From NCBI RefSeq assembly GCF_900172315.1, contig NZ_FWFV01000003.1:1-64000 (forward strand): a stretch of DNA of 64,000 nucleotides, given 5' to 3'. The notes below the pieces were generated by a model, which worked only from the letters and a program-made list of their open reading frames with translations, did no database searches and was not told where the DNA came from. This document shows positions 5,228-36,303 of this stretch, piece after piece. The stretch comes from Palleronia marisminoris. Lineage in GTDB: Bacteria > Pseudomonadota > Alphaproteobacteria > Rhodobacterales > Rhodobacteraceae. The first letter of the stretch is position 1. Each line of letters opens with the position of its first letter. The translations under genes were made by a program, and so were the position numbers.

Positions 5228-5235
5228 CCGAACAG

Positions 5236-5260: not shown

Positions 5261-5279
5261 ACTCCCGCCGGAGCTGCCC

Positions 5280-17057: not shown

Positions 17058-17125
17058 ATGGTGGACCTCAACTTCCTGCTTGCCGTCACCCGATCGGTAC
17101 GACTTTCCCCCGAGCGTGGAGAGAG

Positions 17126-17135
17126 TTTCCGGAAA
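17126..17135. promoter_or_regulatory. TTTCCGGAAA palindrome, putative IclR operator
   Basis: A perfect 10-bp palindrome midway in the divergent gap between iclR (17057) and the TRAP binding-protein gene (17205). TTTCC/GGAAA half-sites resemble those used by IclR-family proteins. No other inverted repeat in the gap stands out. Confidence 0.4.
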
Positions 17136-17204
17136 TGCAAGTTTATCTTGCCCCGCGCCGCCGGGTCTGATCCACATTGTGAAAAGCTCTGGGAGGAGAA
17201 CGCG

Positions 17205-18209: not shown

Positions 18210-18213
18210 CCTT

Positions 18214-18235
18214 GCGCGGCCCTGTGGGGCCGCGC
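18214..18235 (+). terminator. Intercistronic hairpin, second TRAP operon
   Basis: GCGCGGCCC (18214-18222) pairs perfectly with GGGCCGCGC (18227-18235) around TGTG, beginning four bases after the binding-protein stop. It is the same arrangement as at 1543-1570. Confidence 0.55.
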
Positions 18236-18255
18236 TCCTCCCGAAAGGACGCCAC

Positions 18256-18747: not shown

Positions 18748-20056
18748 GATCCTCGGCCTCGGCGCCGGCACACAGATGATCGTCGTGTTCTTCGTGCTGA
18801 TGGCGCTGCGGGTGCCGGTCGCCTTCGCGCTGGGCCTCTCCGCCATCTACGCGATGTGGCGGATCGGCTTCGGCCTCGACCTTGCCGGGGACCTGATCGC
18901 CACGGGGATCGCCAGATACGCGCTGCTCGCCATCCCCTTCTTCATCCTCGCCGGCGCTCTCATGGGCACGCTCGGGATCGCGGAGCGGATGATCCGCTTC
19001 TTCCGCGTGCTGATCGGCGGACTGCCCGGCGGCATGGGCGTCGTGGGCACGGTCGTGTGCCTGTTCTGGGGCGCTGTCTCCGGCTCGGGGCCGGCATCGG
19101 TCGCGGCGATCGGCCCGATGATCATCAAGGGCATGGAGGAGGACGGCTATCCCCGCGCGGTCGGTGCGGCGCTGGTCTGCACGGGTGCCGCGTTCTCCAT
19201 CGTGATCCCGCCTTCCATCGGGCTCGTCATCTACGGCGTCATCGCCGAGACGTCGATCTCGGCACTGTTCATCGCGGCGATCCTGCCGGGGCTCTTCATG
19301 GGGCTCATCATGCTGGTCGTGCTGCCCTTCGTGAAGACGAAGGGGCGCGACACGCTCGACCGCCTTTCCCCTGCCCCCGAAAGCGAAGGCTACTGGCGCG
19401 ACCTCGGCCGCACCTTCCGCGAGTCCTTCTGGGGGTTGATGACCCCCGTCGTGATCCTGGGCGGCATCTACTCCGGCGTCTTCACCCCGACCGAGGCCGC
19501 GCTGGTCGCCACGGTCTACGCGCTGGGCGTCGGGGCCTTCGCCTACGGGACGCTGACATGGCGCACGCTCTACGACGCGCTGACGGACGCGGCGTCCTCG
19601 TCGGCGGTAGTCATGCTGGTGGTCGCCTACGCGAGCCTGTTCGGCTGGGTCGTGACGGTCGAGGATCTGGTCGGCCAGTACTCGACGCAGCTTCTGGGCC
19701 TGTCCGAAAGTTCCGCGGTCATCCTGCTCGTCATCATGGTGATCCTGCTGGTCGCGGGGATGTTCATGGATCCGGTCACCGTGATGTTCATCTCGCTTCC
19801 GATCTTCATGCCGGTGGTGCGCGAGCTGGGCTGGGCCCCGGTCTGGTTCGGCGTCCTGGTGATGGTGAACCTCGCCATCGGCCTCATCACGCCGCCCGTC
19901 GGCATCAACCTCTACGTCGCCGCCAACGTGACCCGCCTGCCCATCGAGCGCATCGCACGCGCGGCCCTTCCATTCCTTCTCATCAGCCTCTTCGGGCTTG
20001 CGGTCATCGCCGCCTGGCCGGGGCTGTCGCTGTACCTCGTGGATGCGCTGAGGTGA
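18740..20056 (+). CDS. TRAP transporter large permease (DctM family)
   Basis: A 438-residue membrane permease, with the family segments WGAVSGSGPASVAAIGPMII near residues 111-130, FSIVIPPSIGLVIYG near 152-166, PTEAALVA near 250, and NLAIGLITPPVGINLYVAANVTR near 375-397. Length is normal. It completes the second TRAP operon and is convergent with anmK, with only an 18-nt gap and no clear terminator. Confidence 0.93.
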   Translation: MSEILGLGAGTQMIVVFFVLMALRVPVAFALGLSAIYAMWRIGFGLDLAGDLIATGIARYALLAIPFFILAGALMGTLGIAERMIRFFRVLIGGLPGGMGVVGTVVCLFWGAVSGSGPASVAAIGPMIIKGMEEDGYPRAVGAALVCTGAAFSIVIPPSIGLVIYGVIAETSISALFIAAILPGLFMGLIMLVVLPFVKTKGRDTLDRLSPAPESEGYWRDLGRTFRESFWGLMTPVVILGGIYSGVFTPTEAALVATVYALGVGAFAYGTLTWRTLYDALTDAASSSAVVMLVVAYASLFGWVVTVEDLVGQYSTQLLGLSESSAVILLVIMVILLVAGMFMDPVTVMFISLPIFMPVVRELGWAPVWFGVLVMVNLAIGLITPPVGINLYVAANVTRLPIERIARAALPFLLISLFGLAVIAAWPGLSLYLVDALR

Positions 20057-20074: not shown

Positions 20075-21193
20075 CTATCCGCCGGCAATGCAGCCCGCGG
20101 TCATGGGATCGGAGACGCCCGTCGTCCCGGGGAACGTCGCCGGCAGATCGCGCAGTCGGCGCAAGGCGAGGAAGGCGAAACACTGTGCCTCGATTGCGTC
20201 GCCCTGCCAGCCCACGTCCTCTGCCTGGTCGACGCGAACCCCGGCGTAGTCTTCAAGCATGCGAAGGAGGGTCGGGTTATGCCGCCCTCCGCCACAGACG
20301 ATCAGGCGCGTGGGCCGCTCGGGAAGCAGGTCCAGCCCGCGCCCCACGGCCGCGGCGGTGAACGCCGTCAATGTCGCGGCCCCATCCTCGGGAGAGAGGT
20401 CCAGCGCCCACTCGTAGCCGAAATCGAACCGGTCGAGCGACTTCGGATAGGGCCGGGCAAGGTAGGCGTGATCGAGCCGGGACCGCAGCCGCGCCTCGTC
20501 TACCTGCCCCGCGGCGGCAAGCTGCCCGCCGCGATCCATTTCCCCCAGTCCAAGATGCGCCACCAGGTCGTTGATCGGCGCGTTCGCAGGCCCCGTGTCA
20601 AAGGCGATCAGCGCGCCACTCGGGTCGCGCGCGGTCACGTTGGCCACTCCGCCCAGGTTCAGGACCGCCGTGCCGTCGCTGGCGCCCAGATCGTCCAGGA
20701 GCGCCCCATGAAAGACGGCCGACAGCGGCGCGCCCTGCCCGCCCGCCGCCATGTCCCCGCTGCGGAAATCGTAGACGACCGTGGTGCCGAGGATCCCTGC
20801 CATCAGCGCCCCGTCGCCGAGTTGGCGGGTTCGCCCAAGACGCCCGGGCTCCGGGGCGCGATGCAGGACCGTCTGGCCGTGGAAGCCCACGGCGGCGATG
20901 TCATCCATGCTCAACCCGGCCTCCGCGACCAAGGTGCGGACAGCCTCGGCCTGGGCGCGCGTGATGCGGTCTTCGGCCACGGCGAAAAGCTCCGGTTCGG
21001 GTCCGTCAAAGGCCCAGGCGCGGGCGGCGGAGAGGCACTCGGCCAGCAGATCGCGCGTCTCGCGGTCGTAGGGGGCAAGCGTGTAGCGCCCGAACTCGGT
21101 TACCCGCACGCCGTCGCTGCGCAGAAGCGCCACGTCGATATTCCCGTCGAGCACGGTTCCGGTCATCAAGCCGACGGTCCAGGCAGGTTCCAT
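20075..21193 (-). CDS. anmK: Anhydro-N-acetylmuramic acid kinase
   Basis: A 372-residue cytoplasmic kinase that opens the 1,6-anhydro ring of anhMurNAc and phosphorylates it to MurNAc-6-phosphate in cell-wall recycling. The N-terminal phosphate-binding GLMTGTVLDG is in the usual place, DFRSGDMAAGGQGAPL near residues 142-157 is the AnmK active-site signature, and LIVCGGGRHNPTLL lies near the C-terminus. The product is the substrate of MurQ, encoded in the same operon at 27225-28151. It is the last gene, 4 nt after the serine hydrolase. Confidence 0.92.
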   Translation of the reverse strand: MEPAWTVGLMTGTVLDGNIDVALLRSDGVRVTEFGRYTLAPYDRETRDLLAECLSAARAWAFDGPEPELFAVAEDRITRAQAEAVRTLVAEAGLSMDDIAAVGFHGQTVLHRAPEPGRLGRTRQLGDGALMAGILGTTVVYDFRSGDMAAGGQGAPLSAVFHGALLDDLGASDGTAVLNLGGVANVTARDPSGALIAFDTGPANAPINDLVAHLGLGEMDRGGQLAAAGQVDEARLRSRLDHAYLARPYPKSLDRFDFGYEWALDLSPEDGAATLTAFTAAAVGRGLDLLPERPTRLIVCGGGRHNPTLLRMLEDYAGVRVDQAEDVGWQGDAIEAQCFAFLALRRLRDLPATFPGTTGVSDPMTAGCIAGG

Positions 21194-21197
21194 GACG

Positions 21198-22169
21198 TCA
21201 ATCTCCGTTCAGGGCGTCGCCCACCTGCCGTCGCAGATCGACGATCCGGCTTTCGGCGTGACGAGTGGGGTGGACGCGGTTGGTCAGCAGGGTCCAGGCG
21301 CGGCCGGCCGCGAAGTCGAGCCAGAGGCCCGTGCCGGTAAAGCCGGTATGCCCGATAGTGCCGGCCGAACAGGCGTCGCCGCCGTTCCATCCGGGGTGGC
21401 GTCTCTCCCACCCTTGGGTGCGGGTCTCGGATAGCGGCTCACCGATCAGACCGGGGCCGCGCTCGAGCAGCCCCTGAGCGAAGTCGAGAACCGCCGCGCC
21501 GGTCCCGAAGAGACCCGCATGCCCGGACCCACGAAGGGCGTGGCAGTTCTCGTCATGCACCTCTCCACGGATCAGCCGGCCGCGCCACGAACAGAACTCG
21601 GTCGGCGCGCATTCCCCGGCGGCAGGCGAGAACGTGAAGCCGGGGCCGGGATCCATCTCATGGATGCCCTTCCCCTCGAGCCGTTCGAGCGCAATGCCCA
21701 GAAGGATGTAGTTGATGTCGGAATAGACCGGCGCGTCCAGCCTGCGCCATTCGCGCTGCAGAACGAACGCCCGCAGCGTGGCGGGGTCGCTGCCGTAGGT
21801 ATAGATCGGTTCGACCGCGGGGAACGGCGTCTGGTGCCCGAGGCACTGGCGGAACGTCACCTGCCGCTCCCACGCCGTCATGTCGTATTGGCGCAGGTCG
21901 GGGATCACCGAGGTCAGCGGCGCATCGAGGTCGAGCCGACCCGCACGCGCGTGGTCCAGGATGCGCTCGGTCGTGAAGATCACCTTCGTCAGCGAGGCAA
22001 GGTCGAACACCGTGTCCTCGCGCATCGGCTCTTCGGATGGCACCAGCGCCGAGAGGCCCCGCGCCGCCAGACGCCGTTCGCCGCCCTCGATCACGCCGAG
22101 GACGGCGCCGGGGATGCGGCCTGCCGCGATGGCCGCGTCGATCAGGTCGAGGGCGCTGTCGAAGCTCAT
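21198..22169 (-). CDS. S12-family serine hydrolase, candidate cytoplasmic muropeptide amidase
   Basis: A 323-residue beta-lactamase-fold (S12/class C-like) hydrolase. Catalytic elements are Ser59-x-x-Lys62 (SLTK), Tyr149-Ser-Asp151 (YSD) and His274-Thr-Gly276 (HTG). The RGEVHDEN...GHAGLFGTG stretch (about residues 201-224) is the signature I associate with S12 hydrolases found beside NagZ/MurQ genes; AmiE (YbbE) of the Bacillus subtilis murQ operon is, as I recall, such an enzyme. No signal peptide, so it should act in the cytoplasm, between importer and AnmK, for example removing the peptide from anhMurNAc-peptides. Start: ATG 22169 after GGAGGAAAC, overlapping the ATPase stop (ATGA). A beta-lactamase or esterase label is possible but fits context less. 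Confidence 0.78.
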   Translation of the reverse strand: MSFDSALDLIDAAIAAGRIPGAVLGVIEGGERRLAARGLSALVPSEEPMREDTVFDLASLTKVIFTTERILDHARAGRLDLDAPLTSVIPDLRQYDMTAWERQVTFRQCLGHQTPFPAVEPIYTYGSDPATLRAFVLQREWRRLDAPVYSDINYILLGIALERLEGKGIHEMDPGPGFTFSPAAGECAPTEFCSWRGRLIRGEVHDENCHALRGSGHAGLFGTGAAVLDFAQGLLERGPGLIGEPLSETRTQGWERRHPGWNGGDACSAGTIGHTGFTGTGLWLDFAAGRAWTLLTNRVHPTRHAESRIVDLRRQVGDALNGD

Positions 22170-23869
22170 GACGTTTCCTCCGTCGCGATGTGGTGGTCGG
22201 GGCCGATCTGGCGCCAGGTCTGCGGGGGCGCGGTGAAGCCGACGGGGCGCAGCAGCGAAGCCACGTCCTCGGTGTCGATCGCATAGTCGATCCGGCGCCG
22301 GTCGATCGATGGAATGGCCGCGATCAGCTTCTGGGTATAGGGATGGCGCGGGTCGGACAGGACCTCCTGCGCCGCGCCCATCTCGACGATCCGCCCGGCA
22401 TAGAGCACGGCGACGCGATGCGCGATCCGTTCGACCACCGCCATGTCGTGCGACACGAAAAGATAGGCGAGCCCGAACTCGCGCTGCAGATCGATCAACA
22501 GCTCCAGTACCCGGGCCTGAACCGACACGTCCAGCGCCGAGACCGCCTCGTCCAGTACCAGGACCCGCGGATTGAGCATCAGCGCCCGCGCAATGCACAG
22601 CCGCTGGCGCTGCCCGCCCGAGAACTCGTGCGGGAAGCGGTCCAGATCGGCGGGAAGCTCCACCCGCGCCAGAAGCGTGTGCATCCGGTCCAGCACCGTA
22701 TCATCGACCCGCTGACCGGCAGCGATCACCGGCTCGGCCAGAAGCGCGCGGACGGTCATCCGGGGATTGAGCGAGGCGTTCGGGTTCTGGAACACCATCT
22801 GCACCGCCGACCGCCCCTCGGTGTCGATCTGCCCCGCAGATGGCCGCACGAGGTCGAGGATCGCGCGCGCCGTGGTCGATTTGCCCGAGCCGCTTTCGCC
22901 GACGATCCCCAGCGTCTCGCCCGGCACGAGGTCGAACGAGACGCCGTCCACCGCATGAACCACGCCGCGGGTCCGGCGCAGGAAGCCACCGCCGACCGGG
23001 AAGCGCACGCTCAGGTCGCGGACGCTCAGCGCAGAGGTCCGCCCGTCGCGCGTGCCGTCCCGGCGCACGGCCTGCCCAGCGCGGAAATGCGGCACCGCGT
23101 CCAGCAGATGGCGGGTGTAGTCGTGCGACGGGTGGTCGAGGACCCGGTCGATCGGACCGCTTTCCACCGCGCGCCCGCCCTGCATCACCAGCACCCGGTC
23201 CGCCAGCCCCGCGACGAGGCCGATGTCATGGGTGATGAAGATCAGCCCCGCGCCCGTCTCGCGCTGCAACTCCGCCAGTAGCGCCATGATCTGCGCCTGG
23301 ATCGTGACGTCGAGCGCGGTCGTCGGCTCGTCCGCGATCAGCAGGCGCGGCTCGCCCGCCAGCGCCATCGCGATCATCACCCGCTGAAGCATACCGCCCG
23401 ACATCTGGTGCGGAGCCTGGTCCAGCCGCCGCGCGGCATCGGGGATGCGCACCCGGTCGAGCGCCCGGATCGACGCCTGCCGCACGGCGCGGCCGCTCAG
23501 CCCGTGCTGCTTGCGGAAGATCTCGTCGATCTGCGCGCCGACCTTCAACACCGGGTTGAGCGAGGTCATCGGCTCCTGGAAGATCATCCCGATCTCGCGC
23601 CCGCGCAGGCGCTGCATCTCTGCCTCGGTCGCAGTGGCGACATCGATCCGTTCGTCGAAGACCGCCCGCCCGCCGAGGATCCGGCCACCGCCGAAATCCA
23701 CCAGCCGGTTGACGGCCATCGCGGTGACGGACTTGCCGGACCCGCTTTCGCCGACGATGGCGAGTGTCTCGCCCGCTGCCACCTCGAAGCTGACGCCGTG
23801 GACCACTTCGGTCTCGTGGCCGGACTTGCCGAAGCCCACGCGCAGATCCTCGACCGACAGAAGCGTCAT
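22166..23869 (-). CDS. Fused dual ATP-binding protein of a peptide-type ABC importer
   Basis: A 567-residue protein with two complete ATPase domains, equivalent to DppD plus DppF (as in YejF or GsiA). The first has GESGSGKS near residue 40, signature MSGGMLQR and [12 protein letters not shown]; the second has GESGSGKS near 338, signature FSGGQRQR and [12 protein letters not shown]. The start at 23869 overlaps the permease stop (ATGA); the much longer frame beginning at 24406 is antisense-like permease sequence and is rejected. It powers the two permeases upstream in the murQ-anmK operon. Confidence 0.9.
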
Positions 23870-24705
23870 CCCAAGGCCCTCCGCGTGCGCGGGTCGAAGA
23901 CGTCGCGCAGCGCGTCGCCCAGCAAGTTGAAGCCCAGCACCGCCAGCATGATGACCACCGCCGGGAAGATCAGCATCCACGGCGCCGTCTCCATCAGGTT
24001 GCGGCTGTCGGACAGCATCAGACCCAGCGACGGGCTGGGCGGCTGCGTCCCGAGGCCAAGGAAGCTCAGCGCCGCCTCGGTCAGAAGCGCCCAGGCCAGC
24101 GCCAGCGTGATCTGCACCGTCAGGGGGGCCACGAGGTTCGTCAGAAGGTGCCGTGTCAGGATGTAGCGCCGCGAACTGCCGAAGGTCCGCGCCGCATCCA
24201 CGAAGCTGCGGGTCTTCAGGGACAGCGCGGGGCCGCGCACGACGCGGGTGAAGATCGGCGTGTAGACGATGGCGATGGCCACGATCGAGGTGTCGATCCC
24301 CGGCCCGTGGATCGCCACGATCAGCAGCGCCAGGAGGATCGCCGGGAAGGACAGCAGCACGTCCATCGCCCGCATCACCGCCCCATCCCAGAGCTTTTCG
24401 AACCATGCCGCCGTCAGCCCGAGCACGGTGCCGACCACGGTTGCCAGCCCGACCGACAGAAGCGCGACCGCGAAGGACTGGCCGATCCCGACCATCAGGC
24501 GGCTCAGGATGTCGCGGCCGAACAGGTCCGTCCCCATCCAGTAGGTCGCGCCCGGTGCCTGTAACCGCGCCAGCCGGTCCTGCGCCAGCGGGTCATGCGG
24601 CGTCAGCCCGGTCAACCCGAGGATCGCCGCGACAGCGAAGACCGCGATGACGCACGCGCCGATCCTGCCAGAGCCGTGGCGCAGAAGCGCGCCGAGAAAC
24701 GACAT
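23866..24705 (-). CDS. ABC transporter permease (DppC type), murQ operon
   Basis: A 279-residue inner-membrane permease with the DppC features GLTGLTPHDPLAQDRL near the N-terminus, GTDLFGRDILSRLMVGIGQ near residues 58-76 and a FVDAARTFGSSRRYILTRHLL coupling helix near 172-192. It has TGATG coupling to the preceding DppB-type gene and ATGA coupling to the following ATPase gene, so all importer parts are stoichiometrically linked. Confidence 0.9.
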   Translation of the reverse strand: MSFLGALLRHGSGRIGACVIAVFAVAAILGLTGLTPHDPLAQDRLARLQAPGATYWMGTDLFGRDILSRLMVGIGQSFAVALLSVGLATVVGTVLGLTAAWFEKLWDGAVMRAMDVLLSFPAILLALLIVAIHGPGIDTSIVAIAIVYTPIFTRVVRGPALSLKTRSFVDAARTFGSSRRYILTRHLLTNLVAPLTVQITLALAWALLTEAALSFLGLGTQPPSPSLGLMLSDSRNLMETAPWMLIFPAVVIMLAVLGFNLLGDALRDVFDPRTRRALG

Positions 24706-25664
24706 CAGCTCTCTCCGTAGCGAATTCGGGGGTCGAGCGCGGCGTAGGCCAGGTCGACGATCAGGTTCACGACGAGGAAGTTGAAGGCGATGAACAGGAC
24801 GACCCCCTGGACCAGCGCATAGTCGCGCTGCAGGATCGCATCCAGCACCACCCGCCCCAGCCCCGGCAGCGCGAAGATCTGCTCGACGATGACCGCTCCG
24901 CCCAGCAGGTAGCCGAACTCGACCCCGCTGAGGGTCACCACCGGGATCAGCGCGTTCGGCAGCGCGTGCCGCCAGATGACGTAAGATTGCGAGAACCCCT
25001 TGGACCGCGCCGTGCGGACGTAGTCCTCACCGAGGATATCGAGCATCGCGGCCCGCGAGATCCGCGTCACCGCAGCGGCGAAGGCGGTGCCGAGCGCCAG
25101 CGCGGGCAGGATCAACTGCGCCAGGTTGCCAAGCGGATCCTCGGTCAGGGGGACGAAGCGGCCCATTGTCGGCAAGGTGCCGAAACCCACCGACAGCACG
25201 TAGATCGCAAGTAGGGCCAGGACGAAGTTCGGGGTCGATTGGCCGATCATCGCGAAGATCCGGACGACCAGGTCCGATGGCCGCTCGACCCGCGTGGCGG
25301 CGAAGACGCCGGCGGGCAGGCCGATCAGAAGCGCGATCAGCATCGACAGCAGCGCCAGTTCCAGCGTCAGCGGAAAGCGTTCCATGATGATCTGCGACAC
25401 CGGCTGACCATAGGTGACCGAAAGCCCCAGATCCCCCTGCAGCAGGCCGATCAACCAGCGCCCGTATTGGACCACCCAGTTCTGGTCGAGCCCGAAATAG
25501 GCCGCCAGCGACTCGCGCTGCGCCGGGGTCAGAAGGCCGGACTCGGTGCCCAGCATCGCCGTGATGGCGTCGCCGGGCACGAGCCGGATGGCCACGAAGA
25601 CGAAGACCGAGACGCCCAGCATAACGAGCGGGAACATCAGCAACCGGCGCAGGACGTAGTTCAT
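24705..25664 (-). CDS. ABC transporter permease (DppB type), murQ operon
   Basis: A 319-residue permease starting MNYVLRRLLMFPLVMLGVSVFVF, with the RLVPGDAI loop and the GEDYVRTARSKGFSQSYVIWRHALPN coupling region near residues 210-235. It follows the binding-protein gene by 28 nt. This is the one binding-protein/permease junction in the window where I see no strong hairpin. Confidence 0.9.
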   Translation of the reverse strand: MNYVLRRLLMFPLVMLGVSVFVFVAIRLVPGDAITAMLGTESGLLTPAQRESLAAYFGLDQNWVVQYGRWLIGLLQGDLGLSVTYGQPVSQIIMERFPLTLELALLSMLIALLIGLPAGVFAATRVERPSDLVVRIFAMIGQSTPNFVLALLAIYVLSVGFGTLPTMGRFVPLTEDPLGNLAQLILPALALGTAFAAAVTRISRAAMLDILGEDYVRTARSKGFSQSYVIWRHALPNALIPVVTLSGVEFGYLLGGAVIVEQIFALPGLGRVVLDAILQRDYALVQGVVLFIAFNFLVVNLIVDLAYAALDPRIRYGES

Positions 25665-25692
25665 GCGGCCCCCTCGGGCGTCTCGGGGTCGA

Positions 25693-27198
25693 TCACTCGG
25701 ACAGGGTCACGTCGACCAACCCGAAGAGCGAGCCGGTCGGCGTCGCCTCGAAGCCCTCCACGCCATCACGCTGTGCCGTGTAGGTGTAGCCGGTATAGAG
25801 CCAGACCCACGGCGCCATCTCGGCGAGGTGGCGTTCGAACTCGGCGAAGATCTCCTTGCGGGCCGCTTCGTCCGTCTCGACCCGCCCCTCTTGCATCAGA
25901 CTGTCGAGCGTGTCGTCGATGTAGTTGGCGACGTTCTGGAGGTTGCCGTCCTTGGTCCAGTAGCGGTTGTACATGGTGTAGGGATCGGCCCGCCCGCCGT
26001 TCAGTGCCACGGCCATGTCGAAATCGCCGGCCAGCCAGCTGTCGACGTAGACGTTCATCTCCTGCATCTCGATGGACAGGTCGATGCCGATCTCGGCCAG
26101 CTGCGACTGGATCAACTGCGCCTCGGCGGCGGCGGTCGGCGGCTCGCCGTTCGCGGCCATGATCGTGGCCGAAAAGCCGTCTGCATAGCCCGCCTCGGTC
26201 AGAAGCTGTCGGGCGCGGTCCTGGTCCTGCTCGTAGCAGAACAGGGTCGACGGATCGTTGCGATAGGCCGGCGACGTCAGCGGCCCCGTGACCTCTCCCT
26301 CGCCCAGCAGGGCGGCATCGAGGATATCCTGCCGGTCGAGCGCGCAGGAGATCGCCTGCCGCACCTTCAACTCGCCCATCGGCGCGCGCGAGGCGTTGAG
26401 CTGCAGCACGTGGTAGCTGAGCGTCGGCGCAGTGTTCAGCTCGAGCCCGTCCGCGCGCGGCACCAGCGTCGCCACCAGCGGGTCGTTCAGAAGCGCGAAA
26501 TCCGCCTGCCCGGCACGAAGCGACGCCAGGATCGCCGTCTCGTCGGGCAGGATGCTGACCTCGATCCCGTCATAGGCGATGCCGCCGCCGTGCCAGTCCT
26601 CGTAGACCGAGAGGCTCGCATTGGCGTTCGGCGTGCGCTGCTCCAGCGTGAAGGGACCGGAGCCCATGATCTCGGTGCCGACGGTGCCCGCCTCGATCGC
26701 CGAAGCCGGGACGATGGCGGCGTTGATCGACCCCATGCCGTTCAGGATCGGCACGTTCGGCCCGTCGAGCTGGAAGACAACGGTGTGTTCATCGGGCGTT
26801 TCGATGCCGGTGATCGAGGTGTAGTTCGCCCGCGCCGAGGCACCCGTCGCCTCATCGAGGATCCTCTCGAACGAGGCCTTCACGTCCGCAGCGGTGACCG
26901 GGCTGCCATCGTGGAAAGTCGCTTCGGGGTCGAGCCGGAAGGTCAGCGTGGTGGCGTCGTCCGAGAACTCCCAGCTTTCGGCAATGGCGGGCTGGATCTC
27001 GAGGTTCGGACCCAGCCGCACCAGCGGTTCATACAGCAGTTCCAGCAGCCGGATCGACGCGAAGGCCGTCTGGGTGTGCGGGTCGAGGCCGGTCGCGTCC
27101 TGCGACCACGCCACGTTCAGCGTCTGCGCGCCAAGCGGTGCCGCGATCCCGGCAGCACCGATGGCGACGGCCGAAACGAGGGTCCTTGCGATGGTCAT
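25693..27198 (-). CDS. Peptide-type ABC substrate-binding protein, murQ operon
   Basis: A 501-residue family 5 binding protein with signal peptide ending at APLGAQ. The start at 27198 follows GGGAGATATGAC, and the longer frame into murQ is rejected. Family segments are visible: ATGLDPHTQTAFASIRLLELLYEPL, TFHDGSPVTAADVKASFERI and IMGSGPFTLEQ. Encoded between murQ and the permeases, so the ligand is inferred to be a MurNAc-containing compound such as a muropeptide or anhydromuropeptide. Two other peptide-type systems, MppA-Opp and YejABEF, are known to import cell-wall peptides, so the family is capable of it. Confidence 0.87.
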   Translation of the reverse strand: MTIARTLVSAVAIGAAGIAAPLGAQTLNVAWSQDATGLDPHTQTAFASIRLLELLYEPLVRLGPNLEIQPAIAESWEFSDDATTLTFRLDPEATFHDGSPVTAADVKASFERILDEATGASARANYTSITGIETPDEHTVVFQLDGPNVPILNGMGSINAAIVPASAIEAGTVGTEIMGSGPFTLEQRTPNANASLSVYEDWHGGGIAYDGIEVSILPDETAILASLRAGQADFALLNDPLVATLVPRADGLELNTAPTLSYHVLQLNASRAPMGELKVRQAISCALDRQDILDAALLGEGEVTGPLTSPAYRNDPSTLFCYEQDQDRARQLLTEAGYADGFSATIMAANGEPPTAAAEAQLIQSQLAEIGIDLSIEMQEMNVYVDSWLAGDFDMAVALNGGRADPYTMYNRYWTKDGNLQNVANYIDDTLDSLMQEGRVETDEAARKEIFAEFERHLAEMAPWVWLYTGYTYTAQRDGVEGFEATPTGSLFGLVDVTLSE

Positions 27199-27224
27199 GT
27201 CATATCTCCCTGTGGATGGTGCAG

Positions 27225-28151
27225 TCAGGCGGGGTTGCTCCCCGCACGCTCGATGGCGCGACGCAGGACGCCGTCCTCGGTCTCGAGTACGGCGCGGGCC
27301 GCGCCGATGTCGAGGCTGCTCATCTGCATGAGGATGGCCAGCTTCACGTTGCCGCCGCTGGCGCCGAGCAGCGCGCGTGCCTCGTCCTCGGGACAGCCCG
27401 TGACCTCCATGACGATGTCGACGGCGCGTTCCGCCAACTTGCGGTTCGAGACCGAGAGGTCGACCATCAGGTTGCCGTAGGTCTTGCCGATGCGGATCAT
27501 GCTGGCGGTGCTGAGCATGTTCAGCACCATCTTCTGCGCCGTGCCCGATTTCAGGCGGGTCGAGCCGGTCAGGACCTCGGCGCCGACTACGGGCGAGATG
27601 GCGATATCCGCCAGCTTGGCGATGATCGAGCCGGGGTTGCACGACAGCGCCACGGTGCCCGCCCCGATCCGGCGCGCGTGGTCCAGCGCGCCGATAACGT
27701 AGGGGGTCTTGCCGCTGACCGCGATGCCCACGATCACGTCCCTGTCGGTCGAATCGAGCGCCGCGAGGTCCTCCGCACCCTGCTCGGCGTCGTCCTCGGC
27801 GTCCTCGACAGAAAGGCGCAGCGCATGGTCGCCGCCGGCGATGAGCCCCACGACCATGCCGGGCGGGACCGAGAAGGTCGGCACGCATTCCGAGGCATCG
27901 AGCACCCCGAGACGTCCGCTCGTTCCGGCGCCGACATAGATCAGGCGCCCGCAGTTTTCGAAGGCCGCGACGATCCGATCCACGGCGCGGGCGATCGCGG
28001 GAAGCTCGGTTCGGACCGCTTCGGCCACGCGCGCGTCCTCGGAATTCATCAGGGCGACGATGTCCGCGGCCGGCAGGCGGTCGATCTCGGTGGTGCGGGG
28101 ATTTCGACCCTCGGAGACCAGGTTGCGAAGGTCCTGCGACGCGGCGGACAT
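27225..28151 (-). CDS. murQ: N-acetylmuramic acid 6-phosphate etherase
   Basis: A 308-residue SIS-domain enzyme that cleaves the D-lactyl ether of MurNAc-6-phosphate to give GlcNAc-6-phosphate and D-lactate. The core [19 protein letters not shown] (about residues 70-88) carries the active-site glutamate, and [17 protein letters not shown] and [21 protein letters not shown] are family hallmarks. It leads the importer-hydrolase-AnmK operon from its own promoter, about 90 nt after the sugar ABC operon. The product feeds NagA and NagB encoded at 34414-36303. Confidence 0.95.
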
Positions 28152-28175
28152 GGCGGCTCTCCTTCAGTTCGTGGA

Positions 28176-28205
28176 AGCCTAGGTTCGTTCCGTTCCCACA
28201 GTCAA
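28176..28205 (-). promoter_or_regulatory. Putative promoter of the murQ operon
   Basis: On the minus strand TTGACT (28205-28200) and TAGGCT (28181-28176) are separated by 18 nt, 24 nt before the murQ ATG. The spacer contains a GGAACGGAACGAAC repeat that could bind a regulator. Motif-based only. Confidence 0.4.
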
Positions 28206-28244
28206 AGCGATTTGCGGGTTGCGGGGGCGCGCCCTGGCGAAGTT

Positions 28245-29333
<1,089 letters not shown>

Positions 29334-29337: not shown

Positions 29338-30207
29338 TTATCCTTTTACCGCGCCTGCCGTGATCCCCGAGATGAGCTGCCGCGAGAAGATCGCGTAGAG
29401 CACCAGAACCGGAAGGATCGCGATGGAGAGCGAGGCGAGGACCGCGCTCCAGTTGACGGTGTATTGTCCGATGAATTGCTGCACGCCCAGGGTCACGGTC
29501 TTGGTCGCATCCGACGAGGCGAGGATCAGCGGGAACCACAGGTCGTTCCAGATCGGGATCATCGAGAAGACGGCCACCGTCGCGAGGACGGGGCGGATCA
29601 GCGGCAGCACGACCTCGAAGAAGATGCGGTATTCCGACAGCCCGTCCACGCGGGCGCAGTCCTTGATGTCGCGCGAGAGGGTCCGCATGAACTCGGTCAG
29701 GATGAAGATCGCGACCGGCAGCCCTTGGGCGGTGTAGACGAGGATCAGCGAGACCAGCGTGTTCACCAGGCTCAGGTCCACCATCAGCTGAAGGATCGCG
29801 ACGGTGCCCAGCCGGATCGGGACCATGATGCCGAGGATCAGGTAGACGCCGAGCAGCGTGTTCAGCTTGAAGCGGTATTCCGACAGCGCGTGCGCCGCCA
29901 TCGCCCCGCAGAGCAGGATCAGGAACAGCGACACGATCGTCACGATCAGCGAGTTTCCGTAATAGAGCAGGAAGTTGCCCTGGTTCAGGACGGTCGCGTA
30001 GCCCTCGGTGCTGAAGGTCTCGGCGGTGGGAAGCGCCAGGGGTTCGGTGAAGATGCCGCGGCGGTTCTTGAACGAGTTCAGCACCACGATCACAACCGGG
30101 AAGATCGCGATGAGCGTGTAGGTCAGGAGGACGGCGTGGACCCCGGCCGCTGTGCCGATGCGCCCCATCCGGCCGCGCCGCGCGCGGGTGGTGTCGACGG
30201 TGTTCAT
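29338..30207 (-). CDS. Sugar ABC transporter permease (MalG type)
   Basis: A 289-residue inner-membrane permease with about six hydrophobic segments and the EAA-loop DCARVDGLSEYRIFFEVVLPLIRP near residues 187-210 that docks on the ATPase. AGGAGCG precedes the ATG. It partners with the MalF-type permease immediately upstream. Confidence 0.9.
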   Translation of the reverse strand: MNTVDTTRARRGRMGRIGTAAGVHAVLLTYTLIAIFPVVIVVLNSFKNRRGIFTEPLALPTAETFSTEGYATVLNQGNFLLYYGNSLIVTIVSLFLILLCGAMAAHALSEYRFKLNTLLGVYLILGIMVPIRLGTVAILQLMVDLSLVNTLVSLILVYTAQGLPVAIFILTEFMRTLSRDIKDCARVDGLSEYRIFFEVVLPLIRPVLATVAVFSMIPIWNDLWFPLILASSDATKTVTLGVQQFIGQYTVNWSAVLASLSIAILPVLVLYAIFSRQLISGITAGAVKG

Positions 30208-30217: not shown

Positions 30218-31186
30218 TCACATCTCGTAGCGGGTCAGGCGGCGCTGCACGCCGACGAGGTAGAGGCCGACGCCGATCAGGATGATGAAGAACATCATGC
30301 AAGCCACGGTGGCGCCCATGTAGATGTCGCCGATCTGGGTCTGCTGCCCGAAGAAGGTGCGGAACATCAGCGTGCCCATGATGTCGGTGGAATAGTCCGG
30401 CGGCCCCAGCACCCCCTGGATCGAGTAGATCAGGTCGAAGGCGAGGGTGAAGTTGCCGATATAGGTCAGGATCGCCACGATCCCGAGTGTCGGCAGGATC
30501 AGCGGCAGCTTGACCTTCCAGAAGATCGCGGCGCCCGACAGCCCGTCCACCCGCGCGGCGTCCAGAAGCTCGTCCGGGATCGACAGGAGGGCCGCGTAGA
30601 TCAGCATCATCGGGATGCCGACATACTGCCAGACCGAGATCATCGACACCGCCGTCAGCGCCGACCCTTCCAGCCCCAGCCACGGCGCATAGAGCCAGCC
30701 CAGCCCCACGGCGGCCATCATGCCCTCGGCCACGCCCCAGAGGGGGGACAGGATCAGCTCCCACACGAAGCCGACGATGACGACGGACAGAAGCGTCGGC
30801 ACGAAGATCAGCGTGCGGTAGGCGCCTCCGAACCGGGGCGCCAGCGACAGGAGCGCGGCCAGCAGGAGGCCCAGCGGGTTCTGCACGACCATGTGGATGA
30901 AGAAGAGGATCAGGTTGTTCCAGAGCGCGTTCCAGAACCGAACGGCCCAGTTCGCGTCGAAGAGAAGCCGCGCGTAGTTCCCCAGGCCCGTCCAGACGGC
31001 GCTGCCATCGGGTTGGCCGGCGAAGAGGCTGAGGCGCAGGCTTTCGACCAGCGGATAGATCGAGAAGACCGTGTAGATCAACACGGCCGGCGCGAGGAAG
31101 ACGACGATATGCGTGATCCCGCCGGTCTTGCGGCGACGGCGCGTCGTGGGCTTGCGGCCGGTCGCGTCCGAGACGATCTCGGTCAT
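30218..31186 (-). CDS. Sugar ABC transporter permease (MalF type)
   Basis: A 322-residue permease with a basic cytoplasmic N-terminus (GRKPTTRRRRK), about six membrane segments and the EAA-loop DAARVDGLSGAAIFWKVKLPLILP near residues 230-253. It follows the binding-protein gene after a 58-nt gap containing a strong hairpin. Confidence 0.9.
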   Translation of the reverse strand: MTEIVSDATGRKPTTRRRRKTGGITHIVVFLAPAVLIYTVFSIYPLVESLRLSLFAGQPDGSAVWTGLGNYARLLFDANWAVRFWNALWNNLILFFIHMVVQNPLGLLLAALLSLAPRFGGAYRTLIFVPTLLSVVIVGFVWELILSPLWGVAEGMMAAVGLGWLYAPWLGLEGSALTAVSMISVWQYVGIPMMLIYAALLSIPDELLDAARVDGLSGAAIFWKVKLPLILPTLGIVAILTYIGNFTLAFDLIYSIQGVLGPPDYSTDIMGTLMFRTFFGQQTQIGDIYMGATVACMMFFIILIGVGLYLVGVQRRLTRYEM

Positions 31187-31244: not shown

Positions 31245-32504
31245 TCAGTCCTGCTGCGGCTCGTACCAGGACTCGAGGCCCTGCTGCATCTCGGCCGCCG
31301 CTTCCTGAGGCGTCATCGTCTCGTTCAGGACGTTGGCCGACACCACCCACATCTCGTTCTCGAGGTTGGGCTCGCCGCGCGACAGGATCTGGGCGGCAAC
31401 GCGAACGGTCGACTCGCAGTCCTGCCGGAAGGACAGGAACTCCTGCGCGAGGGGGTTCTCGACCGCGAACTCGGCGTTCGACAGCGAGAAGAAGCCGGGC
31501 AGCGCAAGGGTGTAAAGCTCGGCGAACTCGGCGCTGGCGGCCCAGTCGAGGAAGGTGCGCGCGGCCTCGGGGTGATCGGTCGAGGCGTTCATGCCGACGC
31601 CGATGTCGGTGTGGTCCGAGATGTAGCAGGTGTCGCCCTCGGCCGAGACGGGTGGCGGAAATGCTCCCATCTCGAAGAAGGCCTGGTCGGTGAAGCCGGT
31701 GATCTCCCACGAGCCGGCGGGATAGATCGCGGCACGGCCCAGCGTGAACAGGTTCTGGCTGTCCGAGTAGCCCTGCGCCTGGTACGCGTCACCCATGTAG
31801 TCGGACCAGCGCGCCATCTGCTCGTAGGGGGCGACGAATTCCTCGTCGGTGAACTCGGCGGTGCCGTCGATCAGGGCCTGCCGGCCTTCCTCGCCCTTCC
31901 AGTAGGTCGGGCCGATATTGGTATAGACGGTCTGCGCCGCTTCCCACTGGTCGGCGCTGCCCAGCGCGAGCGGGATGTAGGTGCCGTCTTCCTTGATCGC
32001 GTCGAGGACGGCGAAGAATTCCTCGACCGTTTTGGGCTCTTCGAGACCCAGTTCGGTGAAGGCGTCGGCGTTGTAGATGAAGCCGTGGATGACCGACGCC
32101 ATGGGCACGCAGAAGACCTGTGCGCCGTCATCGGTGGACCAGGCGGCCTTGGCGAAATCGGGGAAGTTCGACAGCCCTTCGAGGTCCGTGATGTCTGCAA
32201 GCTGCCCGCGCTGGAACAGCGGCAGAGAGCCATCGAACGGCCGGCAGGTGATCAGGTCGCCGGCGGTGCCGCCTTCGAGCCGGGCGTTCAGCGCGGCGTT
32301 GTATTCGGTCGGCGCGGTCGGGGTGAACTCGAGGTTGATGTCGGGGTGCTGCTCCTCGAAGGCCGGGATCAGGACCTCGTCCCAGATCGCCTGGTCCTCG
32401 GCGCGCCAGCTTTCAATGGTCAGCGTGACCTCTTGCGCGATCGCGCCGCCGGCGGCGAGGCAGAGGGCGGCCGCGGCCGTCGTCTTCATCATGATGTGCT
32501 TCAT
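31245..32504 (-). CDS. Sugar ABC transporter substrate-binding protein (family 1), probably amino-sugar
   Basis: A 419-residue periplasmic binding protein with signal peptide ending at GGAIAQE and GGGAG before ATG 32504. Type-1 sugar-binding segments include FEEQHPDINLEFTP, GLEEPKTVEEFFAVLDAIKEDG and GRAAIYPAGSWEI. Divergent from nagK-nagQ-nagA-nagB with a shared operator region, so GlcNAc or chito-oligosaccharides are the likely ligand. The in-frame extension upstream of 32504 covers the GC-rich leader and is rejected. Confidence 0.88.
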   Translation of the reverse strand: MKHIMMKTTAAAALCLAAGGAIAQEVTLTIESWRAEDQAIWDEVLIPAFEEQHPDINLEFTPTAPTEYNAALNARLEGGTAGDLITCRPFDGSLPLFQRGQLADITDLEGLSNFPDFAKAAWSTDDGAQVFCVPMASVIHGFIYNADAFTELGLEEPKTVEEFFAVLDAIKEDGTYIPLALGSADQWEAAQTVYTNIGPTYWKGEEGRQALIDGTAEFTDEEFVAPYEQMARWSDYMGDAYQAQGYSDSQNLFTLGRAAIYPAGSWEITGFTDQAFFEMGAFPPPVSAEGDTCYISDHTDIGVGMNASTDHPEAARTFLDWAASAEFAELYTLALPGFFSLSNAEFAVENPLAQEFLSFRQDCESTVRVAAQILSRGEPNLENEMWVVSANVLNETMTPQEAAAEMQQGLESWYEPQQD

Positions 32505-32817: not shown

Positions 32818-33714
32818 ATGCGCCAAATGATCGACGTGGTCGTCATCGACGGGGGCGGCACCGGAACGCGCCTCCGCGCCCTTGGCGCCGACGGCACCTC
32901 CGTGGCCGAGGCCACATCGGGTCCGTCGAGCCTGACGCTCGGCGTCGAGCAGGCCTGGCGCAACGTCGCCGCAGGCCTCGACGCGCTTGGCGACGGTTCG
33001 GACCTCACCGGAGCGCGCCTCGTCTGCGGGCTGGCGGGCGGGCGCTCTCGTGAACGGCAGGCGCAGTTCCGTGCTCTGGGCCGCGACGCCACCACCGACA
33101 TCGTCATCGTGACCGACGGCTTCGCCTCTTTGCTGGGGGCGCATGGCGGCCAGCCCGGAGTGGTGCTCGCCGTGGGAACGGGCGTCGCCGCCTACGCTCT
33201 TGGCCGGGACGGCCGCGTGTCGAGCGCCAGCGCGTGGGGCTTCAGCATCGGCGACGAGGGCAGCGGCGCCTGGATCGGCCGGCGCGCCGTATCGCTCCTG
33301 TCCCGGCACATGGACGGTCGGCTCAGCGAGACCTCGGCGCTCTTCGACGCGCTCCGGTCGCGTGTCGGCGGCGATTTCGATGCGGTGCAGACTTGGCTCT
33401 CGAACGCCAACGCTACCAAGTTCGCCAGCCTCGCCCCCGTTGTGATCGACACCGCTGCCGCCGGGGATGACGTCGCCATGGGCATCATGCACGATGCCAC
33501 TGCCGAGCTTGAGCTCGCAATTGCGGCCATCGACGATGGCGGGCCGATCTCGCTTCTCGGCGGGCTTGCACCGGTGTTCGCCACCCGTCTCTCGGACCGG
33601 CTGGCCGCGCGCCTGAGGCCACCGCAGGGCAACGCGCTCGACGGGCTCGCGCTGATGGCGCGGCGCGGCTGGCGGGACGAGGTCGTCCCGGGGGAGCAGC
33701 ATCATGATGGGTGA
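32818..33714 (+). CDS. nagK: N-acetylglucosamine kinase (BadF/BadG/BcrA/BcrD type)
   Basis: A 298-residue ASKHA-fold kinase of the BadF/BadG group, not the ROK-type NagK of enterics. It has the phosphate-1 loop VIDGGGTGTRLRALGADG near residues 9-26, a second phosphate motif LAVGTGVAAYALGRDG near 118-133, and the adenosine-site ISLLGGLAPVF near 242-252. It would phosphorylate imported GlcNAc at C6. It is the first gene of the nag operon and overlaps the GntR gene by 11 bases. Confidence 0.83.
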   Translation: MRQMIDVVVIDGGGTGTRLRALGADGTSVAEATSGPSSLTLGVEQAWRNVAAGLDALGDGSDLTGARLVCGLAGGRSRERQAQFRALGRDATTDIVIVTDGFASLLGAHGGQPGVVLAVGTGVAAYALGRDGRVSSASAWGFSIGDEGSGAWIGRRAVSLLSRHMDGRLSETSALFDALRSRVGGDFDAVQTWLSNANATKFASLAPVVIDTAAAGDDVAMGIMHDATAELELAIAAIDDGGPISLLGGLAPVFATRLSDRLAARLRPPQGNALDGLALMARRGWRDEVVPGEQHHDG

Positions 33715-34417
33715 GGCCCCCGACAGCCGCGTGCCCCGCTACCGCGAACTGTCGGATCAGATCGCCCGGCAGATCGAGGACGGAGACCTCGCCCCCGGCG
33801 CCGCACTGCCGCCCGAGCGCACGCTGGCCGAGCTTCATGGCGTCAGCCGCGTGACCGTGCGCAAGGCCATGGAGACGCTCAGCGGCCGCGGCCTGATCGA
33901 ACAGCGCCGCGGCGCGGGCACCTTCGTCTCGAAACGGGTGTCGCAGCCGCTTTCGGTCCTGACCAGCTTTTCCGAGGACGTCGCCGCGCGCGGCATGGTT
34001 GCCAAGTCGCGCCTCGTCCATAGCGGCGTCGGCCGTGCCAGCCCCGAGGAAGTCATCGGCCTCGGTCTCGCACCGGGCCACCCGGTCACGCGCATCATCC
34101 GGTTGCGGTCGGCCGACGGCCAGCCCCTCGCGCTCGAGGCCGCGACCGTTCTGAACGTGGCGCTGCCCGATCCCTCGCTCGCGTCGGATTCGCTCTACGC
34201 CACGCTGGCGGAGCGGGGCATGCGCCCCGTCCGCGCCGTCCAGCGCCTGACCGCCATCGCCATCGACGCCTATGCGGCCGGCCTTCTTGAGGTCGAGCCC
34301 GGGGCGCCTGCCCTTCTCATCACCCGCATCGGCTATACGGCCGAGGATCGCGCGGTCGAGTTCACCCGCTCGACCTTCCGTGGCGATCGCTGGGATTTCG
34401 TAGCGGAGCTGTCATGA
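33704..34417 (+). CDS. nagQ: GntR/HutC-family regulator of amino-sugar genes
   Basis: A 237-residue regulator with N-terminal GntR winged helix (PPERTLAELHGVSRVTVRKAMETLSGRGLI, residues about 33-62) and C-terminal UTRA effector domain. Relatives NagQ/NagR/YvoA sense amino-sugar phosphates such as GlcNAc-6-phosphate. It is encoded inside the nag operon, so it probably autoregulates through the TTGGTATTG sites upstream. The NagQ name is by context and family. Confidence 0.82.
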   Translation: MMGEAPDSRVPRYRELSDQIARQIEDGDLAPGAALPPERTLAELHGVSRVTVRKAMETLSGRGLIEQRRGAGTFVSKRVSQPLSVLTSFSEDVAARGMVAKSRLVHSGVGRASPEEVIGLGLAPGHPVTRIIRLRSADGQPLALEAATVLNVALPDPSLASDSLYATLAERGMRPVRAVQRLTAIAIDAYAAGLLEVEPGAPALLITRIGYTAEDRAVEFTRSTFRGDRWDFVAELS

Positions 34418-35514
34418 CCAGCCATATCGACGGATCAATCCTCACCCCCGGCGGATGGGTCGCTGGCCGCCTGACCCACGACGCGCGGATCGACAGCGTC
34501 GAGGGCGACGGCATGGCTGCACCGAAGCCGCCCTACGTGCTGCCCGGCTTCGTGGACTGCCATGTCCACGGCGGCGGCGGCGCGGACATGATGGAAGGGG
34601 CCGAGGCCATTCGCACGGCCGCCCGGCTCCACGCGCAGCACGGCACGACTGCGTTCTGCCCCACCTCGGTGACCGCCCCGATCGAGGACCTGGATGCCTT
34701 CCTCGACGCCGTCGCAACCGTCATGGCCGACCCGCCGAAGGACGGTGCGTGGGTGCTCGGCGCGCATCTGGAAGGGCCGTTCCTCAACCCCGACAAGCTG
34801 GGTGCACAGCCCCCCTTCGCCCGCCCCGCCGACGCTGAACAGCTGAGGGCCTGGACCAAGCGCGCGACGATCCGCATCATGACCTTCGCCCCCGAGATGG
34901 ACGAGGGCGACGCGCTGTTCGACGCGCTCACCGCGGCGGAGATCCGGGCGCAGCTGGGCCATTCGCTTTGCGACTACGCGCAGGGCAAGGCGGCGCTGGA
35001 GCGGGGCGCGGGCATCACCCACCTCTTCAACGCGATGAGCGGCATCGCCCATCGGGGCAACGGTCTCTGCGGTGCTGCCTTCGCCCATGGCGACTACGCC
35101 GAAATCATCCCCGACCTGATCCACCTCGAGGCCGGCGCGATCCTTGCGGGGCGGCGAGCGATCCCGAACCTCTACGGCGTGACCGACGCCACCGCGGGCG
35201 CGGGCATGCCGGACGGGGCCTACCGCCTAGGCTCCTACGACGTGCAGAAGGCCTACGGCGCGATGCGGCTGGCCGACGGCACGCTGGCGGGGTCGGCGCT
35301 GACCATGGATGTGGCGCTGCGCAACCTCGTGGGCATCGGCCTGCCGCTGGACGAGGCGGCGCGGCGGCTTTCGACCGTTCCCGCCGACTGGCTCGGCCTC
35401 AGCGATATCGGGCGGCTCGCCCCCGGCGCGCGGGCCGACATCCTCGTCCTGGACGAGACGCTCACCCTGACGCGCGTCATCTCGGGCGGCCACGACATCC
35501 TGACGCCGAGGTAA
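34414..35514 (+). CDS. nagA: N-acetylglucosamine-6-phosphate deacetylase
   Basis: A 366-residue amidohydrolase converting GlcNAc-6-phosphate to glucosamine-6-phosphate and acetate. Motifs in order: CHVHGGGGADMM near residues 49-60, AHLEGPFLNP near 117-126, LGHSLCDYAQG near 186-196, THLFNAMSGI near 206-215 and GVTDATAGAGMPDG near 256-269 with the catalytic Asp. It overlaps the regulator gene by 4 bases and lies 3 nt before nagB. Confidence 0.94.
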   Translation: MTSHIDGSILTPGGWVAGRLTHDARIDSVEGDGMAAPKPPYVLPGFVDCHVHGGGGADMMEGAEAIRTAARLHAQHGTTAFCPTSVTAPIEDLDAFLDAVATVMADPPKDGAWVLGAHLEGPFLNPDKLGAQPPFARPADAEQLRAWTKRATIRIMTFAPEMDEGDALFDALTAAEIRAQLGHSLCDYAQGKAALERGAGITHLFNAMSGIAHRGNGLCGAAFAHGDYAEIIPDLIHLEAGAILAGRRAIPNLYGVTDATAGAGMPDGAYRLGSYDVQKAYGAMRLADGTLAGSALTMDVALRNLVGIGLPLDEAARRLSTVPADWLGLSDIGRLAPGARADILVLDETLTLTRVISGGHDILTPR

Positions 35515-35517: not shown

Positions 35518-36303
35518 ATGGAAGTGATCCCCTGCCCCGACCGGGATCGGGCCGTGGCCCTGACCGCCCGCATCATCGAAACCCGCCTGCGCGCCAAGCC
35601 CGACCTGGTCCTTGGCCTCGCCACCGGCCGCACGATGGAAGAGGTCTATGCCCGCCTCGTCGCCAGCGGCGTGTCCTTCGCACGGTGCACCACGTTCAAC
35701 CTGGACGAATATGTCGGCCTGCCGCCCGACGACCCCAACTCCTACGCCAGCTACATGCGCCACCACCTGTTCGACCACGTGGATATCGACCCGGCACGCA
35801 CCCATCTGCCAGACGGGATGGCGAGCGACCTGACCGCCGCCGCCGCCGATTACGAGGCGCGGATCACAGCGGCGGGCGGCATTGACCTGCAGCTTCTGGG
35901 CATTGGCGAAGCCGGCCATATCGGCTTCAACGAGCCCCTCTCGGCGCTCCGCTCCCGCACCCGCGACAAGATCCTGACGCCGACGACGCGCCGACAGAAC
36001 GCCGGCATGTTCGGCGGCAACGAAGAGGCCGTCCCGAAACGCGCCCTGACCATGGGCGTCGGCACGATCCTCGACACCCGCGAGCTGGTGCTTCTGGCGT
36101 CGGGCGCCGCCAAGGCGGGCATCGTAGCCCGCGCGGTCGAGGGGCCGCTGACCGCGCGGGTCAGCGCCTCGGCGATCCAGCTTCACACCTCGTGCAAGGT
36201 CGTCCTCGACGCCGAGGCCGCCGCCGGGCTCGAGGATATCGACTATTACCGTTTCGTCTGCCGCAACGAGGAAAAGTGGGACAACTGCCGCGACCTTCTC
36301 TGA
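35518..36303 (+). CDS. nagB: Glucosamine-6-phosphate deaminase
   Basis: A 261-residue aldose-ketose isomerase/deaminase making fructose-6-phosphate and ammonia. The LGLATGRTMEEVYARL loop, FNLDEYVGLPPDDPNSY with the catalytic Asp, and GIGEAGHIGFNEP with the active-site His and Glu are all present. It ends the nag operon; a hairpin lies between it and the convergent aldehyde dehydrogenase gene. Confidence 0.95.
   Translation: MEVIPCPDRDRAVALTARIIETRLRAKPDLVLGLATGRTMEEVYARLVASGVSFARCTTFNLDEYVGLPPDDPNSYASYMRHHLFDHVDIDPARTHLPDGMASDLTAAAADYEARITAAGGIDLQLLGIGEAGHIGFNEPLSALRSRTRDKILTPTTRRQNAGMFGGNEEAVPKRALTMGVGTILDTRELVLLASGAAKAGIVARAVEGPLTARVSASAIQLHTSCKVVLDAEAAAGLEDIDYYRFVCRNEEKWDNCRDLL

Follow-up and report, generated by a model that had tools for sequence, protein, structure and literature searches.

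The first 64,000 nucleotides of contig NZ_FWFV01000003.1 of Palleronia marisminoris (termed here the window; start of contig C12 of genome G000, which comprises 3.75 Mb and is 99.79% complete) carry on the minus strand, at positions 20075–28151, an operon of seven genes. These encode the N-acetylmuramic acid (MurNAc) 6-phosphate etherase MurQ, a peptide-type ATP-binding cassette (ABC) importer, a serine hydrolase of family S12 and the anhydro-MurNAc (anhMurNAc) kinase AnmK. That the operon serves the catabolism of muramic acid and includes an ABC importer is well supported, and a muropeptide is likely to be the ligand of the importer. With a confidence somewhat above even, the operon is considered here as a counterpart of the E. 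coli unit murR/murQ-murP-yfeW, driven by an ABC importer and not by the phosphotransferase system (PTS), which imports and catabolises small (anhydro)muramyl-peptides. A preliminary description of this DNA had proposed a dedicated system for uptake and recycling of MurNAc compounds; uptake and catabolism of (anhydro)MurNAc compounds is still the likeliest reading.

Gene content and proposed function

All seven open reading frames (ORFs) of the operon were present as first described, and the family scans agreed with their assignments (Table 1). Spacing between the genes ranges from -4 to +28 bp; a scan for promoters found none, and five terminator-like sites were detected, with 4.1 expected. 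The earlier account of the operon's extent holds for the seven genes, whereas an adjacent CUT1 sugar importer and a divergent nag block had been overlooked. Family scans placed the peptide-type importer in the family-5 (Dpp/Nik/Opp-type) class. The PTS transporter MurP was not found in the operon, where family-5 ABC genes occupy the transporter slot; the genome elsewhere was not searched for MurP.

The reactions of MurQ, AnmK, NagA and NagB are known from the named families, and the following route is proposed. The periplasmic substrate-binding protein (SBP) would capture anhMurNAc-peptides, possibly also MurNAc-peptides or peptides of anhMurNAc bearing N-acetylglucosamine (GlcNAc), i.e., GlcNAc-anhMurNAc-peptides, and the permeases B and C with the fused ATPase would bring the (anhydro)muramyl-peptides into the cell unphosphorylated. 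The lactyl-L-Ala amide could be cut by the S12 hydrolase in the cytoplasm, which would free the sugar from the peptide. AnmK would then convert anhMurNAc to MurNAc-6-phosphate, a BadF-type kinase could do the same for MurNAc, MurQ would produce GlcNAc-6-phosphate and D-lactate, and NagA together with NagB would carry GlcNAc-6-phosphate to fructose-6-phosphate. The CUT1 importer probably brings a GlcNAc-type sugar into the same lower pathway. The system would serve the accessory scavenging of wall fragments, not as a general recycling route.

The S12 protein scored 108.5 bits (against 27) with PF00144 and contains the SxxK motif; S59/K62 (S-x-x-K), Y149-S150 and H274-T275-G276 are invariant in an alignment of 33 sequences (32 orthologues and the window protein). 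By inspection, no signal peptide is evident. A structural model (predicted local distance difference test, pLDDT, 90) returned the broad beta-lactamase/esterase superfamily in a fold search. Identity to E. coli YfeW is 27%, but the protein is not a YfeW/PBP4B, as judged from a PRK03642 score of 51 bits against a cut-off of 385 and from its separate branch in the tree. A role as (anhydro)MurNAc-L-Ala amidase is plausible, both the bond cut and the cytoplasmic location being predictions.

The E. coli unit likewise combines MurQ with an S12 protein in the catabolism of muramic acid, and 72 of the 80 related loci have a regulator of the MurR/RpiR type. Differences are the ABC importer in place of the PTS transporter MurP, AnmK within the operon, the S12 protein without an evident signal peptide, and a window without MurR. 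AmiE of Bacillus subtilis is likewise a member of S12. The gene amiE, described as encoding a MurNAc-L-Ala amidase, is part of the cluster murQRP-amiE-nagZ-ybbC (PMC5061867), which resembles the operon by the presence of MurQ together with an amidase gene; the cluster as described there has a PTS transporter, an amidase reported to be extracellular, and no AnmK. No description of the present gene set was recognised in the open-licence literature, as far as titles and the openings of abstracts among the matches listed are concerned.

Conservation and distribution

A scan with an SBP alignment yielded 390 relatives (a further SBP alignment comprised 34 orthologues and the window protein), and the best 80 of the 390 loci, whose organism names are known, were used for comparison; genes were counted in the flanks, and additional genes (MurR, BadF, MurA, GNAT) were sought by tblastn (E<=1e-10). 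MurQ was next to the SBP in all 80 loci; each of the permeases was likewise found in 80, and the ATPase in 79. The S12 hydrolase and AnmK were each present in 75/80 loci, and of the 76 loci free of cuts by contig ends 75 had both. Among the five loci without the two genes four run off contig ends, one of which (L115) retains the first part of S12. Wherever both occurred (75/75), AnmK was located downstream of S12 on the same strand, an order which would be expected if the product of S12 were the substrate of AnmK. A BadF kinase was detected in 64/80 loci.

As a control, MurQ, AnmK and S12 were sought (E<=1e-8, stretches of 7.6 to 19.9 kb) around ten further family-5 SBP genes of this genome and at two loci of distant relatives, and were found in 0/12, with the reservation that the SBP of L188 was itself not re-found at this threshold and that the stretch of L192 had just 7.6 kb. 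Since MurQ accompanied the SBP orthologues in 80/80 loci and was absent from the 12 controls, the linkage exceeds chance. It would appear very improbable, then, that the operon simply houses a common importer of oligopeptides, dipeptides or metallophores: models for Nik, Gsi, Dpp and Opp do match its parts, but the linkage with MurQ extends over several families, and similar sets occur elsewhere.

The 80 relatives belong mostly to Rhizobiales (including Mesorhizobium, Rhizobium, Neorhizobium, Nitratireductor, Martelella, Roseibium and Devosia), some to Rhodobacterales, and one is a Pelagibius. The SBP was also found, with 60–80% identity, on fifteen plasmid records of Rhizobium/Allorhizobium. 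Within the family, with up to ten candidates scored per genome, an SBP orthologue (91% identity) was present in just one of 148 other sampled genomes; two more contained SBPs of 34–35% identity, and the linked enzymes were not seen in the stretches read. A search of 385 genomes of the class for S12 (E<=1e-25) gave 17 carriers, including the genome under study, and two of these proteins (L170 and L171) group with YfeW (support 87/90). The notion of conservation in the family was rejected on account of the SBP count, and the conservation across Rhodobacterales which had been suggested for examination does not hold within the family, where the distribution is patchy; the system is accessory and rare there.

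Some variations of the related loci may be mentioned. In 63/80 loci (e.g., L083:6641-7897, TIGR01072, 543 bits) a homologue of MurA, although an enzyme of wall synthesis, is encoded within or next to this operon for the breakdown of muramic acid. A GNAT acetyltransferase gene adjoins anmK of the operon in 43/80 loci, with no match in the window; it and AnmK form a continuous ORF in L055:8020-8460, L078:17149-17589 and L086:9695-10135, two of which Pfam confirmed. Since MdaA of A. tumefaciens is reported to remove the N-acetyl group from anhMurNAc ends (PMC10838918), the GNAT protein might re-acetylate anhydromuramic acid. Two separate ORFs make up the S12 gene in L045 and L086 (Nitratireductor aquibiodomus and Pelagibius), either by error or by decay.

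More distant loci are arranged differently. A Mariluticola plasmid carries anmK-S12-ATPases, divergent from SBP-permeases-GntR-DgcA, and murQ is not annotated in that stretch. The actinomycetes Embleya and Nonomuraea have SBP, permeases, ATPase, MurQ, AnmK and a distant S12 protein; Embleya possesses in addition an epimerase homologue below all cut-offs (blastp, NCBIfam scan), for which a tblastn check gave no match. In Deinococcus KNUC1210 the order is anmK-S12-nagZ-SBP-permeases-BadF-murQ-GntR, and D. radiodurans has a looser group of similar genes. Fourteen further S12 loci from the class sample (L156–L169) contained AnmK in 12, a family-5 SBP in 7 and MurQ in 5 of the stretches fetched.

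Two alphaproteobacterial loci are of particular importance for the question of the cargo. In L156 an AmpG-family permease takes the place of the family-5 importer, and Sphingobium yanoikuyae has the order murQ-GntR-AmpG-family permease-S12, accompanied by nagA, a SIS protein and D-lactate dehydrogenase. The two permeases scored 320 and 342 bits with TIGR00901, just under the cut-off of 350. In the S12 tree the two AmpG-linked proteins nest within a set of eight with 100/100 support, whose remaining members are ABC-linked. Thus, one S12 clade stands beside two types of transporter, one of them in the muropeptide permease family, and muropeptides are therefore preferred as substrate of the importer; this exchange of AmpG and ABC genes is the best hint for a muropeptide-like cargo.

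Ligand of the importer

Among SBPs of known structure, AgaA with bound agropinic acid was the relative with the lowest E-value, both by phmmer and by Foldseek, with about 28% identity. Agropinic acid is a conjugate of a sugar and an amino acid, and the match would fit a sugar-amino-acid ligand for the window SBP. The opine-binding proteins AgaA and MoaA differ from the window SBP, which is linked to MurQ and AnmK instead. The SBP model is of moderate quality (pLDDT 78) and does not fix the ligand. In the tree, the window SBP groups with two actinomycete SBPs (100/99), apart from ten paralogues of its own genome, while the SBPs of Deinococcus and L159 join these paralogues and that of L157 is unplaced. 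On this tree the linkage to the catabolic genes must have changed three times or more; the tool warns that the branches concerned are long and that their joins may be false.

A rival proposal is an importer for free MurNAc and/or anhMurNAc, i.e., a non-PTS analogue of MurP, with S12 acting on another wall product such as O-acetyl groups or stem peptides. The importer occupies the position of murP in E. coli, AnmK and BadF (the latter in 64/80 loci) are the kinases which an ABC system would need in place of PTS phosphorylation, and the S12 protein YfeW is also part of a PTS-type murQ operon. We consider it somewhat unlikely nevertheless, for the importer is of the peptide type and not of the CUT1 sugar type, AmpG-family permeases adjoin the same S12 clade elsewhere, and genes for nagZ and for members of the L-Ala-D/L-Glu epimerase family in other versions of the gene set point to GlcNAc- and peptide-bearing substrates.

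Several observations weigh against import of muramyl-peptides as well. The structure 5u4o had a better TM-score than AgaA, and MppA was farther down the list; SBPs of the YliB/GsiB, DppA and NikA types give almost equally good matches, and the ligands of family 5 are very varied. Locus L099 has importer and MurQ with neither S12 nor AnmK. E. coli NagZ, AmpG, LdcA and YcjG as well as Mariluticola DgcA had no matches in the 80 loci and the window (E<=1e-10); the hints from nagZ, epimerase and AmpG genes therefore stem from other lineages. AnmK was not seen in the stretches read at either AmpG-linked locus, nor MurQ at L156, and the absence of AnmK there slightly lowers our confidence. In 5 of the 14 class-sample loci (L164–L168) S12 and AnmK occur, but no importer of family 5 or of the AmpG type was recognised, and S12 is present without AnmK and family-5 importer in L169, where a gene of the major facilitator superfamily (MFS) is adjacent, and in D. 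deserti. Finally, S12 may cut another bond, because an Amidase_2 gene persists in all 48 other carriers searched (49 genomes with that under study; the others came from 49 of the 80 loci, chosen so as to avoid most metagenome-assembled genomes and near-duplicates, and L054 was left out), although three Martelella genomes showed weaker matches only (1e-23 to 1e-25), perhaps not of true AmpD. A general replacement of AmpD by S12 was rejected for this reason.

Genomic context and significance

The preliminary description had considered that the importer could replace AmpG. As a functional substitute of AmpG in general peptidoglycan recycling, the importer would fit several findings: no TIGR00901 match was obtained genome-wide at E<=0.01 (six control genomes, E. 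coli and Caulobacter included, gave matches); ampD is largely deleted, which suggests a changed recycling route; and 40 of the 49 carrier genomes have a single AnmK, located outside the locus read in the genome of L099. This role is judged unlikely, since yej genes, a gene resembling nagZ and another copy of anmK are present in the genome, and the system is rare in the family. In particular, yejB (531 bits, cut-off 445) is accompanied by a YejE-like permease (418 bits, cut-off 439) and a family-5 SBP. Another SBP, with 33% identity to the latter, is encoded on contig C6, which gave no match to a YejB-like permease; both SBPs are termed YejA-type from position and mutual similarity, not from a YejA model. 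The NagZ-like gene belongs to GH3 (NF003740, 198 bits, cut-off 207). The second anmK (G000:C22:457169) is 42% identical to the operon copy and faces an ORF read by eye as tyrS. The SBP orthologue is present in 1/148 family genomes although AmpG is reported to be lacking in Rhodobacterales (PMC9790009), and S12 in 17/385 class genomes, two of them YfeW-like.

Of the searches proposed beforehand, those for nagZ and yej gave genes of these types, and ampD proved to be largely deleted in this genome. The AmpD domain Amidase_2, present in 142/149 family genomes, had no match in the genome under study. Genome G066 of the same genus keeps ampD; the corresponding site (C26, about 47.2 kb; L137) is contiguous, with most of the gene missing, and just short gene ends seem to align by eye. 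A gap in the assembly was rejected as explanation, since the contig spans the site from the gatA side to the rnpB flank (flanks named by eye). An additional SBP gene (G000:C13, 439039-440499) is situated near a partial match to YcjG (33%, 135 aa; L183:11093-11497), possibly a stem-dipeptide route.

YejBEF-YepA is described as an AmpG substitute in Agrobacterium which is widespread in Rhodobacterales (PMC9790009). It shares with the present importer the family-5 ABC type and the occurrence in alphaproteobacteria without AmpG, its muropeptide cargo being known there and predicted here. The two differ in SBP branch, permease subfamily and the catabolic enzymes in the operon, and yej is present besides. 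The window permease is not of the YejB type (109 bits against a cut-off of 445), and a branch with 100/100 support separates the window SBP from the two YejA-type SBPs of its genome, in a tree without named YejA or YepA. AmpG is an MFS permease unmatched in this genome; the ABC importer has in common with it the S12 clade, which in Sphingobium and L156 is found next to members of the AmpG family.

Table 1. Features of the operon and its upstream neighbourhood (positions in the window; bits are scores with the named models)
Position	Strand	Feature	Basis
20075..21193	-	anmK, anhydro-N-acetylmuramic acid kinase	NF007141 464 bits, cut-off 352; 36% identity to E. coli AnmK
21198..22169	-	S12-family serine hydrolase, candidate (anhydro)MurNAc-L-Ala amidase	PF00144
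22166..23869	-	Fused dual ATPase, peptide-type importer	Two ABC_tran stretches and oligo_HPY
23866..24705	-	Importer permease C	PF00528; Opp/Nik C-type models under cut-off
24705..25664	-	Importer permease B	PF00528 and BPD_transp_1_N; Opp2B 329 bits, cut-off 350
25693..27198	-	Family-5 SBP, start resembles signal peptide (by inspection)	PF00496
27225..28151	-	murQ, MurNAc-6-phosphate etherase	TIGR00274 399 bits, cut-off 302; 51% identity to E. coli MurQ
28152..28244	-	93-bp murQ/CUT1 gap, site of divergent murR/rpiR in close relatives	
28245..29333	-	CUT1 sugar importer ATPase (UgpC/MalK type)	
29338..30207	-	CUT1 permease	PF00528; GlcU/UgpE/MalG models under cut-off
30218..31186	-	CUT1 permease	PF00528; UgpA/GlcT models under cut-off
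31245..32504	-	CUT1 substrate-binding protein	SBP_bac_1/SBP_bac_8
32818..33714	+	BadF/BcrA-type kinase (NagK/MurK-like)	PF01869; NagK_SO3507 106 bits, under cut-off 370
33704..34417	+	GntR/UTRA regulator	
34414..35514	+	nagA-like, GlcNAc-6-phosphate deacetylase	TIGR00221 208 bits, just below cut-off 226
35518..36303	+	nagB, GlcN-6-phosphate deaminase	TIGR00502 252 bits, cut-off 237

The CUT1 importer is encoded on the same strand as murQ and ends 93 bp upstream of it; its ligand is presumably an amino sugar, the SBP showing weak matches to TIGR03850 (50 bits) and NgcE (35 bits), both far under the cut-offs. The divergent block of nagK-like, GntR, nagA and nagB genes adjoins it, and with all three units muramic acid would be carried through to fructose-6-phosphate. 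No MurR/RpiR match was obtained in the window (tblastn, E<=1e-10), and the genome beyond it was not searched; the 72 related loci with such a gene include those of Citreimonas and Palleronia, and in Citreimonas and Palleronia abyssalis murR sits between the CUT1 genes and murQ. Because the window is without murR, the CUT1 and murQ operons may now be read as one. Elsewhere in the window, a second family-5 SBP with a related permease is found at 3482-9183 (+), followed by further ORFs, perhaps the rest of an importer. A TRAP-type transporter (+), convergent to anmK and preceded by an IclR-like regulator (-), occupies 16272-20056, as judged from translations read by eye.

A wider proposal, to which we give slightly less than even confidence, is that the operon adds a third type of muropeptide importer to AmpG and YejBEF-YepA: family-5 importers would have been recruited repeatedly to a cassette of S12, AnmK and MurQ, one clade being common to Alphaproteobacteria and actinomycetes, and S12 would be a cytoplasmic anhydromuramyl-peptide amidase. 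S. coelicolor is described as recycling MurNAc while lacking a MurP orthologue (PMC5061867), and the mycobacterial MurNAc transporter is called unknown in a 2026 preprint (PMC13041923). If the proposal were true, the form found in actinomycetes could be the missing MurNAc transporter of those that have no MurP. For the uptake of wall sugars in bacteria without AmpG or MurP, the gene set offers a candidate importer, along with a potential cytoplasmic amidase that does not belong to the AmpD family.

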